NCBI GenBank assembly: GCA_031179305.1
Contig: JAPSHX010000004.1
Coordinates: 1-64,000 of the forward strand
Length of the DNA stretch: 64,000 nt
Direction of reading: 5' to 3'
From: Paenarthrobacter sp.
Lineage (GTDB): Bacteria; Actinomycetota; Actinomycetes; Actinomycetales; Micrococcaceae
The position numbers and the translations under genes are program-made. Position 1 is the stretch's first letter, and each line of letters starts with the position of its first letter. This document shows, one piece after another, positions 3,504-10,345 of the stretch. The notes beneath the pieces were generated by a model. That model had not been told where the DNA came from and made no database searches. It worked only from the letters and a program-made list of their open reading frames with translations.

Positions 3504-5254
3504 CCTCGGAAATCCTGCCCATTGCCACCCCTCGCGAAACCAGGAAAGCAATGTGGCGCCTGCTGGCGCAACGCCCCGGCAGGCTCACCCTGACCATCTT
3601 GGTTTTGCTGGCGGCATCCTGCTGCGGCTTGGCTGCCCCGGCACTTCTGGGCATCATGGTCAACATCGCAGCATCGGGAGGGGACGTCATGTCCCTGCTG
3701 TGGCTGGCAATCGGGTTGTTGGTGGCCGGCGGCCTAGGTGCCCTGCTGGGCATCCTGGGGCAGAACCTCTTGGCCCGGATCTGCGAGGAAGCGCTCGCCG
3801 GGCTGCGCGAGGAGGTGTTCGCGGCAGCCGTCCGGAAGCCTCTGGCACAGCTGGAAAAGGCGGGCATCGGCGACGTCGTGGCCCGGGTGTCCGGGGATGT
3901 TGAAGCAGTCAGTGAGGCAATCTCCGGGGTGCTGCCAGCGTTCACCAGCGCAGCTTTCACCATCGGGGTGACCTTGCTGGGCTTGGGCGTCATCGACTGG
4001 CGCTTCGCGGTGGCCGTGCTGGTTGCTGCCCCGTTGCAGATCTTTACCCTTCGCTGGTTCCTCAAGCGAACAGCGCCCATTTATCGGACGGTCAGGATCA
4101 CCGAGGCTAATCGAACCGAGCAGATCATCGAGACCGTCCATGGCTCGCGCTCTGTTGTGGCCTTGGGCCTCGGGTCACGCCATGCGGATCTTGTGGCAGC
4201 AGGCTCGCACGAGAACATCAGCCATTCGCTGCGCGGGGTGGGTTATCTGACCCGGTTCTACAACCGCCTCAACCTTGCGGAACTGATCGGACTGTCCGCG
4301 GTTCTGGTGGTGGGTTTCTGGCTCCATGCCGAAGGCGTCGTCACCATCGGCGCGGCCACGGCAGCGGCACTGTACTTCTACCGGCTGTTCGATCCCATCG
4401 GGCTGGTTCTGGGGCAGTTCGATGAGCTCCAGAAAGCCGCAGCCGGGTTGGGGCGCATGTTCGGCCTGACGATGTCCGCGGGGCCAAATATTGCCTCGGC
4501 CTCGCCTGCTGCCTCTGATGCCGGCATCGTCCTGGACAATGTCACCTTTGCTTACCCGGGCCAGCGGCCAGCCCTCAAGGGAGTCTCCCTCACGGTCGGC
4601 TCGGGCGAGAGGGTGGCGATTGTTGGTACTTCCGGCGCGGGCAAGACCACGTTGGCCAAAATCATCATGGGTTTGGAGCACCCCGGCAGCGGGACACCCT
4701 GGGTGGGCGGGCTGGACTCGGCCGCCGCTTCCCCGACGGACCTGCATCAGCGCATTGCCATGGTCAGCCAGGAAGTGCACGTTTTCTCGGGCACCCTCGC
4801 CGAGGACCTCAGGCTCGCCAAGCCCGGCGCTTCTGCCGGGGAACTCATACGCGCCCTGCAGGCTGTAGGGGCTGCTTGGGTTGAAACGCTCGACGACGGC
4901 TTGGAGACTTCCGTAGGCGCCGGCGGGCATCAGCTCACACCTGAGCAGGCGCAACAGCTGGCCTTGGCTCGGCTGATGCTCAAGGACCCGCCCATTGCAG
5001 TGCTCGACGAAGCCACTGCAGAAGCAGGAACCGGGTCCGCCGCCATGCTCGACCAAGCTGCGGAAGCTGCCTTGGCCGGCCGAACCTCCGTGGTAATCGC
5101 GCACCGGTTGTCCCAGGCAGCAGCGGCGGACACCGTGGTGGTCATGGAGCACGGGCGGATTGTCGAGTCGGGTGCGCACCAGGAACTGCTGTCCGACGGC
5201 GGCCGCTACGCACGCCTGTGGGAAGCCTGGAACAGTTCACTGAGCCGGAACTGA
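3500..5254 (+). CDS. ABC exporter half-transporter with intact Walker motifs but degenerate signature
   Basis: 584 residues, starting at a GTG inside the GTGA overlap with the preceding half-transporter, so the two are translationally coupled and should form a heterodimer. Membrane domain about residues 20-310; ATPase domain from about 335. Walker A is intact (VGTSGAGKTTL, near 375), the Q-loop is present (AMVSQEVHVFSG), Walker B carries the catalytic Glu (IAVLDEAT, near 502) and the switch His is present (VIAHRLS). The signature is LTPEQAQQL instead of LSGGQ. The features complement the partner: one good ATP site would form from this Walker A/B and the partner's LSGGQ. Substrate unknown; iron-linked by context. 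The end overlaps the convergent downstream gene by 18 bases. Confidence 0.88.
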   Translation: MTSEILPIATPRETRKAMWRLLAQRPGRLTLTILVLLAASCCGLAAPALLGIMVNIAASGGDVMSLLWLAIGLLVAGGLGALLGILGQNLLARICEEALAGLREEVFAAAVRKPLAQLEKAGIGDVVARVSGDVEAVSEAISGVLPAFTSAAFTIGVTLLGLGVIDWRFAVAVLVAAPLQIFTLRWFLKRTAPIYRTVRITEANRTEQIIETVHGSRSVVALGLGSRHADLVAAGSHENISHSLRGVGYLTRFYNRLNLAELIGLSAVLVVGFWLHAEGVVTIGAATAAALYFYRLFDPIGLVLGQFDELQKAAAGLGRMFGLTMSAGPNIASASPAASDAGIVLDNVTFAYPGQRPALKGVSLTVGSGERVAIVGTSGAGKTTLAKIIMGLEHPGSGTPWVGGLDSAAASPTDLHQRIAMVSQEVHVFSGTLAEDLRLAKPGASAGELIRALQAVGAAWVETLDDGLETSVGAGGHQLTPEQAQQLALARLMLKDPPIAVLDEATAEAGTGSAAMLDQAAEAALAGRTSVVIAHRLSQAAAADTVVVMEHGRIVESGAHQELLSDGGRYARLWEAWNSSLSRN

Positions 5255-6157
5255 AGCTTCAACCAAGGGCTCGGCCGGCGGGTCATGCCGTACCGGGATT
5301 CCCTTGGCGAATGCCCGCACTTTGGCGTCATCCCAAATATGCGCAGGAACGCCTCCACCCAGTAGTTTGCGGGCCAACGTGGGGTCATCGCCGAAGGGCG
5401 CATGACTGCCTGCCATGATCATGTTGCCGTAGCGGCGCCCCTTCAACATGGCGGGATCGGCAATGATCATGGTGTGCTCGAAGGTATCTGCGATGGTGGC
5501 GGCGTCAGCCCGGGCGTTTTTGAGGTCCGGAGCATCGCCCGAGTTCACCACATACAGTCCGTCAGGGGCGAGAACCGAATCTGCGTGCGCTGTGAACTGC
5601 CGCGTGGTCAGCGCACGGGGCGTGAAGGCTCCGGCGAAGACGTCGCGGATGATGAGGTCGCGGCTGTCCGGAGTAAGGGATTCAGTGACTTGCCGGGCTT
5701 CGCCGACGCGGATCCGCAGCAAGGGCGCCTTGGGTAGATCGAACCAGCCGCGCACGTAGTCCGCCAGCTTGCCGTCGAGTTCAACAACTACCTGCCGCGC
5801 TTCAGGGTAGGCCGCGTGGAAGTAGCGGGCCATTGAGCAAGCTCCCCCACCAAGATGAAGGCCACGCAGCTTCGGCTTCTGCTCCCGCGGCCAGCGCGAT
5901 TCCACCAAGGCAGCGATCCACCGCATGTACTCAAAATCCAGGAACAGCGGGTCAGCCAGGTCAATGTGCGAGCTCATAACGCCGTTGATTCTGAGAAGCC
6001 AGCCATTGGAGTTGTCTTGGTCCTGCAGCAGCTCGCAGTCGCCGGTATCGATGTAGTAAACCCCCGCGACCGGACCATCAGGGCGGGTGCCGGTTGGCAC
6101 CTCGACGACCCCCGCCGTCGACCTCTGGGACCTGTTGGCCTTGCCGCGTTTTGCCAC
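5237..6157 (-). CDS. Spermidine synthase-like protein (class I SAM-dependent fold)
   Basis: 306 residues. The central region has the Rossmann-type glycine loop LHLGGGACSMARYFHA (about residues 98-113), then an acidic strand end VVVELDGKLADYVRGWF and RDLIIRDVFAGAF, which is how polyamine-synthase-like proteins bind decarboxylated SAM or SAM. The N-terminal ~35 residues are basic and low complexity. Many actinobacteria carry such 'fused/spermidine synthase-like' proteins whose substrate is unknown; no partner polyamine gene lies nearby. Its 3' end overlaps the convergent ABC gene by 18 bases, so the two cannot share an ordinary intergenic terminator. Confidence 0.75.
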   Translation of the reverse strand: MAKRGKANRSQRSTAGVVEVPTGTRPDGPVAGVYYIDTGDCELLQDQDNSNGWLLRINGVMSSHIDLADPLFLDFEYMRWIAALVESRWPREQKPKLRGLHLGGGACSMARYFHAAYPEARQVVVELDGKLADYVRGWFDLPKAPLLRIRVGEARQVTESLTPDSRDLIIRDVFAGAFTPRALTTRQFTAHADSVLAPDGLYVVNSGDAPDLKNARADAATIADTFEHTMIIADPAMLKGRRYGNMIMAGSHAPFGDDPTLARKLLGGGVPAHIWDDAKVRAFAKGIPVRHDPPAEPLVEASVPAQ

Positions 6158-6482: not shown

Positions 6483-6508
6483 GTCCGCAGATGTCAGGTT
6501 CTGCGGAC
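6483..6508. terminator. Hairpin between convergent genes
   Basis: GTCCGCAGA and TCTGCGGAC form a perfect 9-bp stem with an 8-base loop. It lies downstream of the small membrane gene and overlaps the 3' end of the convergent sucrase/ferredoxin-like gene, so it could terminate both directions. There is no clear T-run. Confidence 0.45.
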
Positions 6509-7417
6509 GGAAGTGGGTTCGTACACTATCACCGAGCCCTCCGTAGGCGCCCGGCAGGTTAGTTGACGCAGTGGCGTGCGGCGGGCCCGCAATTCCACAT
6601 CGATATGCGCCGGGTGGGGCGGCTTGCCGGTGATGTGAATCCGCCAGTACTCGCCCTCACGCAGGGTCTCCGTGACCACATAATCATGCCGACCGGCAGG
6701 GCCGAACCGTTCAAGCACGGCCACGACGGCGGCCTGCTGTGGTGGGAGGAGATCTGTATATCCGCGCAAATATTCTGCCCGGATGCTGTCCGCGAGGTGA
6801 TCCTCAACAGTGGTGACGGAGGACCCGGCGTCGAGTCCTCCGTAATAGACGCCGTCGGGAGCGATGACGGCGTTGGCCGCGAACCTGTCACCGCCGATGT
6901 GGGAGCACTCCCACACCAACTCCGGCCATCGCTCACTGAGCGCACGCCCCACGGGCCGTCCCCGCACTGCGCAGCAGGCGTCATGCTGACCATGAGCGCA
7001 GACCAGGATAACGGGTGGAAAACCCGACTCTCCGGGAGATTCCAGTGCTGAGGCGATCTTCGCAAGGTCCTCATCTCGCTCCCATATTCCCCATAGCTGT
7101 TGATAGGCGCCGGAGCTTTGGTGGCGGAGAACGGCCCAATTGGCCGGACCATGGCGTCGGCGGGCACCGAGCCGCCGGGGGCCAGGACGCCGCACAAGGA
7201 GGATCCGTGCATTCGCCGTCTGCGCGGCAGAGATGACCAGGGCCTTCGTCCCGGCGTCAAGATCAAGGCCCTCGAAGCCGTTGGGCGGCCAGGCGCCCGG
7301 ATACTCTATGAGAACCCAAACCAAGCCCGGTGACGCCGTACCTGCCATCGAGTCACCCCGCACCCGGGCACTTTCGGCGCAGAAGAAGCGCTCCGTTGCG
7401 GCAATTGGGGACGTCAC
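6494..7417 (-). CDS. Sucrase/ferredoxin-like (Suc_Fer) thioredoxin-fold redox protein
   Basis: 307 residues from a GTG at 7417; an ATG 23 codons later is possible, but the upstream part (RFFCAESARVRGD) includes a Cys that I believe is conserved in the family. The core VILVCAHGQHDACCAVRG with a following ECSHIGGDRFAANAV is the diagnostic region of the sucrase/ferredoxin-like family, whose cysteines and histidines are thought to hold a [2Fe-2S] cluster in a thioredoxin-like fold. It is the third gene of a minus-strand set behind a JmjC-like cupin oxygenase and a repeat protein, so a role as electron donor or redox partner of that oxygenase is plausible (inference). Confidence 0.85.
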   Translation of the reverse strand: MTSPIAATERFFCAESARVRGDSMAGTASPGLVWVLIEYPGAWPPNGFEGLDLDAGTKALVISAAQTANARILLVRRPGPRRLGARRRHGPANWAVLRHQSSGAYQQLWGIWERDEDLAKIASALESPGESGFPPVILVCAHGQHDACCAVRGRPVGRALSERWPELVWECSHIGGDRFAANAVIAPDGVYYGGLDAGSSVTTVEDHLADSIRAEYLRGYTDLLPPQQAAVVAVLERFGPAGRHDYVVTETLREGEYWRIHITGKPPHPAHIDVELRARRTPLRQLTCRAPTEGSVIVYEPTSVRRT

Positions 7418-7425
7418 GGTTCAGG

Positions 7426-7456
7426 GTCGCAGTTCACGTCAGTGTCGCAGTTCACG
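7426..7456. repeat. Two copies of a 13-base direct repeat
   Basis: GTCGCAGTTCACG occurs at 7426-7438 and 7444-7456, an 18-base period, in the 45-base gap between the cupin gene and the sucrase/ferredoxin-like gene. It may only be short slippage, or a spacing element that affects coupling of the two genes. Confidence 0.5.
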
Positions 7457-7462
7457 CCGACA

Positions 7463-8668
7463 TCACTGTTCAACGGGGACGAGAACTCCTGCGCGCAACA
7501 GCCTTTCCACAAGTTCAACGCCGAGATCACCGGCGAGGTGAGCCTCGCCGTCGAGTAGGCGCCGCACGGACGGCAGATCCAGCTCCGGGAAGTCGAGCCA
7601 ACCGACGCGGGTAGTCAAGCGTGAACCCTCAAACCGGGCTTCAAGTGCATCCCGAAGCCGCACCAGCGACCCCGGGCCAAGGTCCTCGACGGCGGCGAGC
7701 TGGGCCACCGGGCCAAGCGGTGCCGGGCGTCCCTGTCCCCGCCGTGCGCGCTGGAAAAGGGAAGTGGTATCAGCCTCCATGATGGCGGCGGCGAGACGTT
7801 CACGGACCGCGGCGATCTCCCCTTCGGGACCATCCACGCCCATTGGCAAGGACCGTCGCATCCCGGGATCGTCGCATAGTGCCGCAAGTGCGGCCTGCGC
7901 GAGGTGCTCGGCCAGCGCATGGTGGGTCCAGCTGTGTATTCCCAAAGTGAGATGAATCGAGACCTTCCCCTGAGCCTGGGCTGCATGCAACCAACCACGT
8001 GGCAGGTAGAGGACATCGCCGGGCTCCAGGACGGTGTCAATATAAGGCTCACCCTGAGCGGCCTCGGCGACGGCGGAGCGGCGATCCGTCCAAGGCTGGC
8101 TACGCAGTGGGTCCACGTGGACCGGCTCATGGATGATCCAGCGCTTGGTCCCCTCGATCTGCAGGACGAAGACGTCGTGGACATCGTAGTGATCGTCGAA
8201 ACCGCGGTTTTGGGGCGGGGTGATGTAAGCGTTGGCCTGCACAGGATGTCCGAGCTCGGTGGTTAACTTTGTGCTGAAGTTACGCACGGGCTCCCACGTG
8301 CGATGCAGCGCCTGCAGCACGAGGGTGGCTCCGTCACCGAACCTGCGCCAAAGCTGAGTGTCGTCCAGCTGGTCAGAGATGGTGGCACCAACGCCTGCCG
8401 GAGAGGTGTAGGAGGATTCGGGAAGAGTGGCGCCACCCTTGGCCATGCGCAGGAAGGGTGTCCGCAGACCCCGGCGCGAAATCAGCTCGTCAACCGCGTT
8501 GGCCGAGAATAGATCGGAGAAATCGCTGGCACCACGCGTGAGTAGCGCAGTGCGCCCCCAGACCTCGCTGGCGAATCTCTCTTGGCCGATGTCGATCAGG
8601 CGTCTTTCCAAGACCCCGGCTTCCTTCACCGTGCCGGGGTCCTGGAAATCAGTACTGGTAGTGCTCAA
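7463..8668 (-). CDS. JmjC-like cupin (Cupin_4/ROXA-type) 2-oxoglutarate oxygenase
   Basis: 401 residues from TTG 8668 (AAGG about 12 bases upstream), beginning only two bases after the stop of the repeat-protein gene. The cupin/JmjC barrel spans about residues 130-240: the iron ligands are likely H160 and D162 in DDHYDVHDVF and the His in RGWLHAAQ about 68 residues later; 'EGTKRWIIHEP' and 'EPGDVLYLPRGW' are typical of Cupin_4 proteins. Characterised relatives (YcfD/ROXA, MINA53, NO66) hydroxylate Arg or His in ribosomal proteins. A C-terminal winged-helix-like part follows (about 300-401). Because it is coupled to a repetitive Asp/His-containing protein, that protein may be its substrate (inference). 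Confidence 0.85.
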   Translation of the reverse strand: MSTTSTDFQDPGTVKEAGVLERRLIDIGQERFASEVWGRTALLTRGASDFSDLFSANAVDELISRRGLRTPFLRMAKGGATLPESSYTSPAGVGATISDQLDDTQLWRRFGDGATLVLQALHRTWEPVRNFSTKLTTELGHPVQANAYITPPQNRGFDDHYDVHDVFVLQIEGTKRWIIHEPVHVDPLRSQPWTDRRSAVAEAAQGEPYIDTVLEPGDVLYLPRGWLHAAQAQGKVSIHLTLGIHSWTHHALAEHLAQAALAALCDDPGMRRSLPMGVDGPEGEIAAVRERLAAAIMEADTTSLFQRARRGQGRPAPLGPVAQLAAVEDLGPGSLVRLRDALEARFEGSRLTTRVGWLDFPELDLPSVRRLLDGEAHLAGDLGVELVERLLRAGVLVPVEQ

Positions 8669-8670
8669 AC

Positions 8671-9024
8671 TTAGCTACCTTGTTGCCCGGCGCCACCATC
8701 AGCACCGCCGTCGGCGCCACCATCAGCACCGCCGTCGGCACCACCATCAGCGCCGCCGTCGTGGGCTCCCGGGACGCCTGCCGCGCCACCGTCGGCAGGG
8801 CCTTCAGCACCGCCGTCGGCGCCACCATCAGCGCCACCATCAGCGCCGCCGTCGTGGGCTCCCGGGACGCCTGCCGCGCCACCGTCGGCAGGGCCTTCAG
8901 CACCGCCGTCGGCACCACCATCAGCGCCACCATCAGCGCCGCCGTCGTGGGCTCCCGGGACGCCCGCGGCGCCACCGTCTGCCGGGCCTTCCTGCTCGCT
9001 TGGATCCTGCTCTGGAATGGTCAT
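8671..9024 (-). CDS. Asp-Gly-Gly repeat protein, candidate substrate or precursor of the cupin oxygenase
   Basis: 117 residues from ATG 9024 with a near-perfect GGGAGG site 4-5 bases upstream. A 12-residue N-terminus (MTIPEQDPSEQE) is followed by three units. Units 1 and 2 are 31 residues: GPADGGAAGVPGAHDGG, then three ADGG, then AE. Unit 3 has five ADGG and ends AGQQGS. Each unit has one His (GAHDGG) and many Asp, no Cys, Lys, aromatic or hydrophobic core, and no signal peptide, so it is probably disordered and cytosolic. It ends two bases before the cupin oxygenase start. The opposite strand is also open but is Arg/His-rich nonsense. I do not recognise a named family. Confidence 0.8.
   Translation of the reverse strand: MTIPEQDPSEQEGPADGGAAGVPGAHDGGADGGADGGADGGAEGPADGGAAGVPGAHDGGADGGADGGADGGAEGPADGGAAGVPGAHDGGADGGADGGADGGADGGADGGAGQQGS
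8692..8988. repeat. 93-bp tandem repeat array encoding the Asp-Gly-Gly units
   Basis: Three in-frame copies of a 93-base unit, each itself containing 12-base sub-repeats encoding ADGG. Copies 1 and 2 (high coordinates) are nearly identical in DNA; copy 3 carries extra sub-repeats and several silent changes, showing expansion by unequal crossing-over or slippage while the frame was kept. Confidence 0.85.
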
Positions 9025-9169
9025 GCTTCCTCCCGAGAATCAAATGGCGTACTCAGGCTCCGGATATCGGAACCTGATTCCAAACCGGACGATCTTCATC
9101 GACACGGTTCGTGATCACCATATCGACATGAGTCAGCTGTGGGAACAGCTCGCGAGCGTTGGGATTCCG

Positions 9170-9673
9170 CTAAGGCCCGACGGCAGGGCGCACCATTCTG
9201 TGTTCCGGCAGCGAGTACCAGGATGGGTCGCAGAGCTGTCGTTTGCCGTCCGGCACAAAACCGTTGCGACGATAAAAAGCCCGGGCCCGGGGATTGTCGT
9301 CAAGAACCCACAAGTACGCTGGCCCATCGCCGATCAGGGCCTCCACCAAGGCCTGGCCCACTCCCCTGCCATGGATGCGTTCCAGGGTGTAGAGCATGAA
9401 CAACTCAACGTCGCAGGGACCGTCCTCGTCCTGTCCGCGACCAGCTGCGCCGAGGCCCACCAGATAACCGTCGGGATCGTGGGCCAACATCCGGGTGTGG
9501 CCCGCGGCGATGAAGGACCGGTACCGCTCGATGCGGTCGGGCAGCGCCGCTTCCTGTTTCTCGAAGAACGCCGGAGGCAGCAGATGCCCGTAACTCTCCT
9601 TCCACGACTGAACATGCATGAGGGCCATGGCCTCGGCATCATCCACCGTTGCCGGACGAATCGTGAAATCCAC
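9170..9673 (-). CDS. GNAT-family N-acetyltransferase
   Basis: 167 residues from GTG 9673, immediately after the stop of the O-methyltransferase gene, so the two are an operon. The N-terminus FTIRPATVDDAEAMALMHVQSW is a standard GNAT start; the acetyl-CoA pyrophosphate-loop motif is about residues 100-115 (GRGVGQALVEALI), and the 'YRRNGFVPDG' near the end is the typical fourth motif. The acetyl acceptor cannot be read from sequence. It is upstream of the repeat/cupin cassette with a 145-base gap, so may or may not be transcribed with it. Confidence 0.85.
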   Translation of the reverse strand: MDFTIRPATVDDAEAMALMHVQSWKESYGHLLPPAFFEKQEAALPDRIERYRSFIAAGHTRMLAHDPDGYLVGLGAAGRGQDEDGPCDVELFMLYTLERIHGRGVGQALVEALIGDGPAYLWVLDDNPRARAFYRRNGFVPDGKRQLCDPSWYSLPEHRMVRPAVGP

Positions 9674-10345
9674 TTATCGCACCCTCGCTATCGCAAAACC
9701 GTCCCAACCCTTACTGCCCACAGTTTGGATGGCGGTGGCATCGAGCCGTGAATCCTGCCCCATATTTTCCAGCATGGCCACAATGCCTGGTGCGTTGACC
9801 TCATCCCGCCCGGGCTCCAGGATGGCCCCATCCCAAATGACGTTATCCACCACGATCACCGTTCCCGGGTGGCCGAGTCGAATAGCCCAGTCGAGGTAGT
9901 TCGCGTCATTTTCCTTGTCGGCGTCGATGAATACGAAGTCGAATGATTCCTGGCCAGCCAAGGTCGGCAGGGTGTCCAGCGCAGCACCAACACGAATGTC
10001 CACCTTGTGCCCCACTCCGGCAGCATCCAAATTGGCGCGCGCCACGTCGGCATGCTTTTGGAGGAATTCGCACGTAACTATCCTGCCGTCGTCGGGCAGT
10101 CCCTGGGCCATCCATATGCTGCTGACTCCCGCAAGCGTTCCAATTTCGAGGACTCGCCTGGCCCCCGACATTTGAACCAGCATCCGTAGCAACTTGCCGG
10201 CGTTGGGGGCTACTTCTATGGCAGGCATCCCCGCTTCAGCGGCGGAAGTCACGGCGCGCTTATGGACCGGATCAGGACGCACGACGACGTCAGTCAGGTA
10301 ATGCTCGACGTCGACCCAACCAGGCTCGGTCACGTGTTCAATCAT
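9674..10345 (-). CDS. SAM-dependent O-methyltransferase (family 3 / caffeoyl-CoA OMT-like)
   Basis: 223 residues, the family's usual length. Motif I is VLEIGTLAGVSSIWMAQGL (about residues 64-82), motif II-like CEFLQKHADVARANLD, and the metal-binding/catalytic segment FDFVFIDADKENDANYLDWA with a following IVVDNVIWDGAI, as in Mg-dependent catechol-type O-methyltransferases. The likely reaction is methyl transfer from SAM to a small hydroxylated molecule; the acceptor is unknown. Operon with the GNAT gene downstream. Confidence 0.88.
   Translation of the reverse strand: MIEHVTEPGWVDVEHYLTDVVVRPDPVHKRAVTSAAEAGMPAIEVAPNAGKLLRMLVQMSGARRVLEIGTLAGVSSIWMAQGLPDDGRIVTCEFLQKHADVARANLDAAGVGHKVDIRVGAALDTLPTLAGQESFDFVFIDADKENDANYLDWAIRLGHPGTVIVVDNVIWDGAILEPGRDEVNAPGIVAMLENMGQDSRLDATAIQTVGSKGWDGFAIARVR

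Follow-up and report, generated by a model that had tools for sequence, protein, structure and literature searches.

The locus and its three genes

The window analyzed here (the whole 64,000-nucleotide stretch of Paenarthrobacter sp., contig JAPSHX010000004.1, positions 1 to 64,000) contains three consecutive genes on the minus strand, which code for a small Asp-Gly-Gly repeat protein, a JmjC_2 (PF08007) oxygenase of the type dependent on 2-oxoglutarate (2OG) and Fe(II), and a thioredoxin-like ferredoxin of the Suc_Fer type. An initial annotation of this DNA had placed the three open reading frames (ORFs) within 6494-9024, and our analysis confirms them there, at 8671-9024, 7463-8668, and 6494-7417. 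The pairing of the repeat gene with the oxygenase gene recurs in other actinobacteria, and, judged from sequence, the gene set apparently specifies an undescribed class of modified peptide, reminiscent of ribosomally synthesized and post-translationally modified peptides (RiPPs). We refer to the repeat protein as the precursor. The features of the locus are:

8671..9024, minus strand: precursor-like repeat protein, 117 aa (from the ORF and the upstream homologs at oxygenase orthologs)
8690..8991, minus strand: 93-bp tandem repeat array with an Asp-Gly-Gly core (from Tandem Repeats Finder, TRF)
9025..9034, minus strand: putative ribosome-binding site of the precursor, GGGAGGAAGC, preceding its ATG (from the sequence)
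7463..8668, minus strand: JmjC_2 (PF08007) 2OG/Fe(II) oxygenase with a NO66-type fold, 401 aa, TTG start
8183..8191, minus strand: H160-x-D162 of the iron site (H160 codon 8189-8191, D162 codon 8183-8185)
8144..8146, minus strand: K175, aligned with a Lys of NO66 (codon checked, invariant)
7985..7987, minus strand: H228, third iron ligand (codon checked, invariant)
6494..7417, minus strand: Suc_Fer-like protein of the thioredoxin-like ferredoxin type, 307 aa (PF06999)
6971..7000, minus strand: CX8C (C140...C149), putative [2Fe-2S] ligands (from invariance, codons checked)
6887..6901, minus strand: H173-X3-D177 in place of HX3H (H173 conserved at 1.00, D177 at 0.99)

The genes are closely spaced, with 2 bases (8669-8670) between precursor and oxygenase and 45 bases (7418-7462) between oxygenase and Suc_Fer, and each of the three was found once in the window's own genome, which is 82.8% complete. 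The precursor begins with a 'leader', MTIPEQDPSEQ, followed by units of the form (E)GPADGGA-AGVPGAHDGG-(ADGG)n, with GAHDGG occurring once per unit; the tandem array comprises 3.2 copies with 90% matches (TRF score 471). GGAGG-like stretches precede most of the precursor relatives whose upstream regions were listed.

The precursor and oxygenase genes are consistently paired

The association of the precursor and oxygenase genes is, for practical purposes, certain. With the oxygenase as query, orthologs (at least 81% identity) were recovered from 19 of 101 same-genus genomes, that of the window included, and a repeat ORF lies directly upstream in all 19. A family-level sample of 245 genomes yielded 13 matches, viz., 11 new orthologs, the window itself, and a 28% identical protein (G140); the repeat ORF is present at all 11 of the new orthologs and is lacking at G140. 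Among 60 further loci, most of them from a class-level sample, one (L127, 33% identity) was set aside as a paralog, and 57 of the remaining 59 family members carry an Asp-rich repeat ORF (53 by regular expression, L118-L120 by inspection, and L126 of a second type discussed below). In named genomes the repeat adjoins the oxygenase at 79 of 80 loci, including representatives of Arthrobacter, Pseudarthrobacter, Paenarthrobacter, Kocuria, Streptomyces, Brevibacterium, Brachybacterium, Leucobacter, Flexivirga, Nocardioides, Microlunatus, Pedococcus, Phycicoccus, Knoellia, and Serinicoccus; at the remaining locus, Rhodococcus L157, the sequence starts 40 bases upstream of the oxygenase match, at a contig end. 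Streptomyces albidoflavus NRRL B-1271 (L163) is one of the strains with the cassette. In 42 of these 79 loci precursor stop and oxygenase start share about 4 bases, in the ATGA manner, and in another 18 the two genes are separated by 2 or 3 bases. Run with the oxygenase as query, as the initial annotation had suggested, a neighborhood search thus finds upstream repeat ORFs in other genera and families, and in other classes of the phylum too.

The pairing is also specific. Neither a dense D/G ORF nor a Suc_Fer gene lies near any of 20 paralogous JmjC_2 genes (29-34% identity), or near three further paralogs (L310, L313, and L314). Conversely, a DNA pattern for HDGGADG has matches in 95 of 394 class genomes, and, among the matches listed, all 33 genomes with at least two of them within 500 bp have the cluster beside the oxygenase, as judged by comparing the clusters with the oxygenase list by eye. 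The remaining matches are scattered singles, and a reversed-pattern control gave 5 scattered matches. Clustering of the neighborhoods of 70 loci recovered the precursor, oxygenase, and Suc_Fer genes as the only ones recurring in most of them (antisense shadow ORFs aside); the next-widest family, an ABC-type one, is found at 11 loci in scattered positions, and one group of 6 loci has common flanking genes.

The oxygenase is patchily distributed among related genomes, as the genus sample illustrates, and its identity is about 70% in Streptomyces, as against about 50% in families that belong to the same order or class; together these features suggest possible spread of the cassette by horizontal transfer. 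The best matches in a plasmid search are about 31% identical and were taken as paralogs, with one record at 60-80% identity. At one Streptomyces locus (L204) the oxygenase is split over two frames next to an intact precursor repeat, which might reflect a sequencing error or a broken gene. The genes flanking the cassette in the window, namely a spermidine-synthase-like gene (5237-6157), a GNAT gene (9170-9673), and an O-methyltransferase gene (9674-10345), recur only in the closest relatives and are therefore not members of it. Upstream of the precursor, an imperfect dyad around CAGGTTCCGATATCCGGAGCCTG was seen by eye at 9045-9120 of the window, along with a GGGCG...CGCCC-like stem in Arthrobacter relatives; either might be an operator or a 5' leader structure. 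An iron-responsive promoter was considered and dropped, since no box of the IdeR/DtxR type was seen by eye in the upstream regions, motif statistics not having been computed.

The oxygenase has a predicted NO66-type fold

The oxygenase matches PF08007 with an E-value of 9.9e-30 (103.1 bits against a cut-off of 22), along with Cupin_8 and, weakly, Cupin_1, and its iron site, reported as an intact HxD...H in the initial annotation, is present as HYD...H. H160, D162, H228, and K175, the last of which is a putative 2OG ligand, are invariant in an alignment of 59 sequences and likewise in 85 family members plus 10 paralogs. T150, P151, and A230 are invariant and R69 nearly so within the family, and all four differ in each of the 10 paralogs.

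An AlphaFold2 model of the oxygenase (pLDDT 87.8, pTM 0.83) superimposes on NO66 over 369 residues (Z 29.4, root-mean-square deviation 4.5), followed by MINA53 (Z 26.9), YcfD (19.3), and YxbC (19.2), with JMJD7 (14.0), JMJD5 (13.8), and FIH (13.1) lower. As modeled, the protein is a complete NO66-type fold with a JmjC domain and a C-terminal winged helix. The latter is predicted to consist of strands (335-359) followed by helices (362-392), an order which, according to PMC12710340, is that required of RiPP recognition elements (RREs); the Pfam search of the oxygenase gave no match to the PqqD/RRE model. JmjC phage proteins from a viral fold library covered the oxygenase only partially. We also considered a metallophore or bufferin system of the MNIO (DUF692) type and rejected it, as the oxygenase matches PF08007 and no MNIO family.

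Two core types follow the enzyme lineages

Precursors associated with this oxygenase family come in two principal types: type I, or DGG-type, with an (ADGG)n core as in the window, and type II, with an Asp repeat of the form (DGDATD/DADGTD)n that is nearly free of His. Type II was found at 13 of 16 further class-sample loci, the same 13 that have a linked Suc_Fer (34-41% identity); the leader motif [DE][DEAS][DEQ][IMV] is present in 12 of them, with L311 cut by a contig end. Same-phylum genomes beyond the class yielded 20 relatives of the oxygenase (34-43% identity). At 17 of these the upstream peptide starts in an 'LTDEDIETV'-like manner and continues with a core of the kind of DGDATDGTDGDATD or DADAADADASD; contig ends truncate L220 and L225, and the repeat at L217 is a different one. 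This last locus contains a long frame with SADGTDQGVxGGTYGPRDA repeats that ends 18 bases before the oxygenase start, with no nearby Suc_Fer, and its repeat is possibly a third core type.

Overall, the leader motif is present in 30 of the 32 type II peptides found. Some DGG-type peptides begin in the same manner (MALDDDDITT, MALNDDDIQT, and MTINDDDITL), and this DEDI/DDDM-like start, being common to both types, ties them together. The L304 precursor mixes the EGPAD of type I with the DGDATD of type II and is a possible evolutionary link between the two. In a FastTree phylogeny rooted on the 10 paralogs, 65 type I oxygenases group with L097 and L099 in a single clade (support 0.97), and 31 type II loci group in a second one (support 0.97), apart from the paralogs; the peptide type therefore follows the enzyme lineage. 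At L097 and L099 (48-49% identity) an acidic ORF with the end DDPELxGADLxEDQ...GPTxEPGA overlaps or lies just upstream of the oxygenase, with no adjacent Suc_Fer; it is possibly a degenerate or diverged precursor.

Dense Asp is common to both types. In the set of 120 distinct type I precursors, no His is found in 15, no Arg in 60, no Lys in 106, no Cys in 118, and no Trp in any; they contain 1530 DxG motifs, and 1483 of the 1672 Asp residues after residue 15 lie in such motifs. Of 30 type II cores, 27 lack His, 30 Cys, 20 Lys, and 16 Arg, and Asp makes up 30% of their residues. A comparison of 763 adjacent D[GS]GA unit pairs from the relatives, 3052 codons in all, gave 1646 differences at codon position 3, as against 164 and 8 at positions 1 and 2; as the count is conditioned on the protein motif, its one informative element is the high synonymous divergence. 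Going by this divergence, the repeat is no product of chance: its units are not fresh duplicates and have nonetheless retained their protein sequence.

No known family was recovered for the precursors in Pfam or NCBIfam, nor in PHROGs, where the window precursor alone was searched; annotation pipelines therefore likely call the latter a hypothetical protein. Weak matches to Sdr/Clf adhesins (E 0.02-10) were dismissed as low-complexity noise.

The Suc_Fer partner shows an altered motif

The Suc_Fer-like protein matches PF06999 with an E-value of 8.9e-16 (59 bits against a cut-off of 34.9), and no relative was found for it in PDB by sequence. In an alignment of 120 sequences, C140, C148, C149, H173, and C288 are invariant, and D177 is conserved at 0.99. 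The Suc_Fer motif is described in PMC8482512 as CX8CXnHX3H. The linked copies have HX3D in 118 of 120 cases and HX3H in none, with 2 unmatched by the regular expression; outside the class, all 16 motif-bearing Suc_Fer loci have HX3D. The second His of HX3H being absent, the window-type Suc_Fer falls outside the bis-His CX8CXnHX3H subgroup of Apd1/Aim32, and the HX3D subgroup is a candidate for a Cys2-His-Asp cluster.

Suc_Fer lies beside the oxygenase at 78 of the 80 named loci (L195 breaks off within the oxygenase, and the flank of L198 contains no Suc_Fer), and of the 20 oxygenase relatives outside the class 16 have one close by. In one clade (L092, L094, L096, and L102; genomes G399, G414, G381, and G428) precursor and oxygenase are paired and an HX3D Suc_Fer is located elsewhere in the genome; these unlinked copies all have HX3D, and that of a fifth genome with a DGG-type system, G395 (L284), has no motif. 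Second Suc_Fer copies have HX3D in G363 and HX3H in G383, and the Suc_Fer of G416, whose oxygenase (L099) is without a repeat peptide, has HX3H. Where a genome lacks the oxygenase, HX3H is the form seen in 27 of 30 copies that bear the motif, and L285 has no motif; the three HX3D copies (L292, L293, and L297) come from genomes of one family (G351, G390, and G422) with no oxygenase listed. On account of these 3 of 30, we rejected the idea that HX3D strictly marks the system; from the sequences compared, the HX3D form is associated with the system and not exclusive to it.

Proposed function and its alternatives

We propose that these genes form a RiPP-like cassette, in which the Asp-rich repeat protein would be a dedicated substrate, the oxygenase would oxidize many of its Asp residues, and Suc_Fer would serve as the redox partner; we put the probability of this reading at roughly 0.65. 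A ribosomal precursor gene adjoins the PF08007 oxygenase gene, which is the gene pairing typical of RiPP systems. That the precursor is the substrate of the oxygenase appears very likely, and the oxidation of Asp probable: Asp is the likely hydroxylation target, since dense Asp is the constant element and many or most of the peptides lack His, Arg, Lys, or Cys. The absence counts led us to reject His, Arg, or Lys as a universal target. The initial annotation had likewise regarded the repeat protein as a multi-site substrate, with either the once-per-unit His or the repeated Asp as the site; the substrate proposal gains from the recurrence of the gene association across families and classes, confinement to very close relatives having been named there as a refuting outcome, and the His option falters on the His-free precursors.

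Mechanistically, the oxygenase would probably recognize the N-terminal leader of the precursor and, with Fe(II), O2, and 2OG, oxidize, most simply beta-hydroxylate, many Asp residues along the disordered repeat. Suc_Fer could rescue the Fe(III) enzyme, reduce a product-bound metal, or perform a second step on the peptide. As the cassette has no protease or exporter, its product may be a modified small protein that stays inside the cell. Hydroxy-aspartates set close together bind hard metals well, as in siderophore chemistry, and the Asp residues of the cores are spaced every 4 residues in type I and every 2-3 in type II. On this basis one might tentatively envisage a poly-(beta-hydroxyaspartyl) peptide acting as a ribosomally made chelator or buffer of iron (or Ca/Mn), with the HX3D Suc_Fer as redox partner, and constituting a new peptide class across the actinobacterial phylum, a more elaborate scenario that we consider rather doubtful.

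Several observations weigh against the proposed cassette. The structures closest to the oxygenase are His and Arg hydroxylases, and we know of no Asp-directed enzyme among its closest structural relatives. A one-chain AlphaFold2 model of precursor plus enzyme left the precursor disordered (residues 1-104, pLDDT about 30), with no sign of docking. The DEDI-type leader motif is strictly present in just 13 of 131 type I peptides, and the window leader (PEQDP) is not of this type. The orthologs L097 and L099 have only the acidic non-repeat ORF in place of a repeat peptide, and L217 carries a different repeat upstream of its oxygenase relative. Gly and Ala, plus Thr, are present in all 30 type II cores. 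Moreover, an ORF passed the filters through D[GSH]GA-type motifs or an Asp content of 20% or more, so that the invariable presence of Asp among the peptides counted is in part built in; the informative part is that an Asp-rich ORF is missing at few oxygenase ortholog loci. Suc_Fer is not adjacent at 11 of the 59 family members (L100 and L124 lie near contig ends) and is therefore not strictly required in cis. Finally, no conserved protease or exporter emerged from the clustering of the 70 neighborhoods, in keeping with the initial annotation, which had seen none adjacent in the window; such extra operon genes were accordingly rejected as cassette members, and the neighborhoods lend no support to RiPP maturation of the classical kind.

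The identity of the modified residue and of the product bears on the alternatives. Hydroxylation of the once-per-unit His of the DGG-type precursors, by NO66/MINA53 chemistry, would accord with the closest structures being histidyl hydroxylases and with a His preceding the Asp in 275 of the 1530 DxG motifs; yet 15 of the 120 DGG-type precursors and 27 of the 30 type II cores lack His, although the iron site does not vary across the 85 aligned family members and the 10 paralogs, which leaves this option very improbable. Hydroxylation of backbone Gly or Ala, which abound in both core types, seems to us extremely unlikely, as we know of no JmjC protein hydroxylase acting on either, and as the L213 core is nearly Gly-free and the L211 core low in Gly/Ala, Asp being dense in both; Gly, Ala, and Thr are thus disfavored by pattern and chemistry and not by absence. 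Alternatively, Asp might be the target and the product go beyond plain beta-hydroxy-Asp, through further oxidation, decarboxylation to aminomalonate, cyclization, or a metal adduct, with Suc_Fer participating. JmjC enzymes usually work without a partner, and the loci with no adjacent Suc_Fer, 11 of 59, also speak against such a Suc_Fer-dependent product. The altered motif of the partner (HX3D in 118 of 120 linked copies) and the Asp to beta-hydroxy-Asp to aminomalonate route of the graspetide enzymes SmaO/SmaX, as described in PMC13097080, favor it, and on balance we deem it unlikely.

A different possibility is that the repeat protein is an acidic regulator, decoy, or scaffold, and that the true substrate of the oxygenase lies elsewhere, e.g., in a ribosomal protein. 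NO66/YcfD relatives act on ribosomal proteins, and both the disorder of the acidic peptide in the model and the overlap of the genes in many loci would be compatible with such a role. However, the patchy occurrence of the oxygenase (19 of 101 genus genomes) is unlike housekeeping ribosome modification, the change of repeat type with enzyme clade resembles the behavior of a multi-site substrate, and the linked repeat peptide itself argues against a ribosomal-protein substrate for the window oxygenase; we accordingly rate this possibility as quite remote. Should the hydroxylation of many Asp residues in the proposed cassette hold true, its oxygenase would be the first PF08007 Asp hydroxylase as far as is known, and its product a new gene-encoded poly-hydroxyacid. 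There is a real chance that this RiPP-like PF08007 hydroxylase system represents a new class.

Comparison with known systems

As the initial annotation had surmised, the trio appears to be without a published function: no description of it was found in the literature searched, most subscription papers lying outside that scope, and a text search of the repeat motifs was also empty. The sole hint in print that we found is a remark in PMC12710340 (2025), consulted in part, which notes eukaryotic PF08007 proteins with RRE-like folds and places their closest bacterial homologs in 'RiPP-like genomic contexts'. Those proteins share with the window oxygenase the Pfam family and the strands-then-helices order of the extra domain; the remark is short and, in the part seen, leaves the bacterial homologs unnamed and gives no precursor, partner, taxa, or chemistry.

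Among known RiPP pathways, Asp beta-hydroxylation in a gene-encoded peptide is carried out by the MNIO enzymes PesHI and PflD and by SmaO of a graspetide pathway, according to PMC13060819 and PMC13097080. The oxygenase family of PesHI and PflD differs from PF08007, and PesHI modifies one Asp in a cluster with peptidase and transporter genes (PMC13060819), unlike the window cassette. JmjC or cupin-like hydroxylases are found in the biphenomycin-type RiPP pathways, viz., BipG/BpmG and PbsQ; these target ornithine within a larger cluster, and the material seen on them mentions no repeat precursor. The graspetide corallotide has a large precursor with five repeats, in each of which a 2OG oxygenase acts, but Lys is hydroxylated there, after macrocyclization, and a graspetide synthetase is required (PMC13097080).

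The Suc_Fer of the system has PF06999 and the CX8C...H spacing in common with the thioredoxin-like ferredoxins Apd1/Aim32, whereas its fourth motif residue is Asp and not His. With NO66, MINA53, and YcfD the oxygenase shares the whole fold, including the C-terminal winged helix, the HxD...H site, and the Lys after the HxD strand; it differs in being encoded beside its own repeat peptide and in an identity of at most 27% in the structural alignments, and the His and Arg residues targeted by those enzymes are not consistently present in the linked repeat peptides. A fold known for ribosome hydroxylation is thereby linked, in a minimal cassette, to a probable natural peptide substrate.

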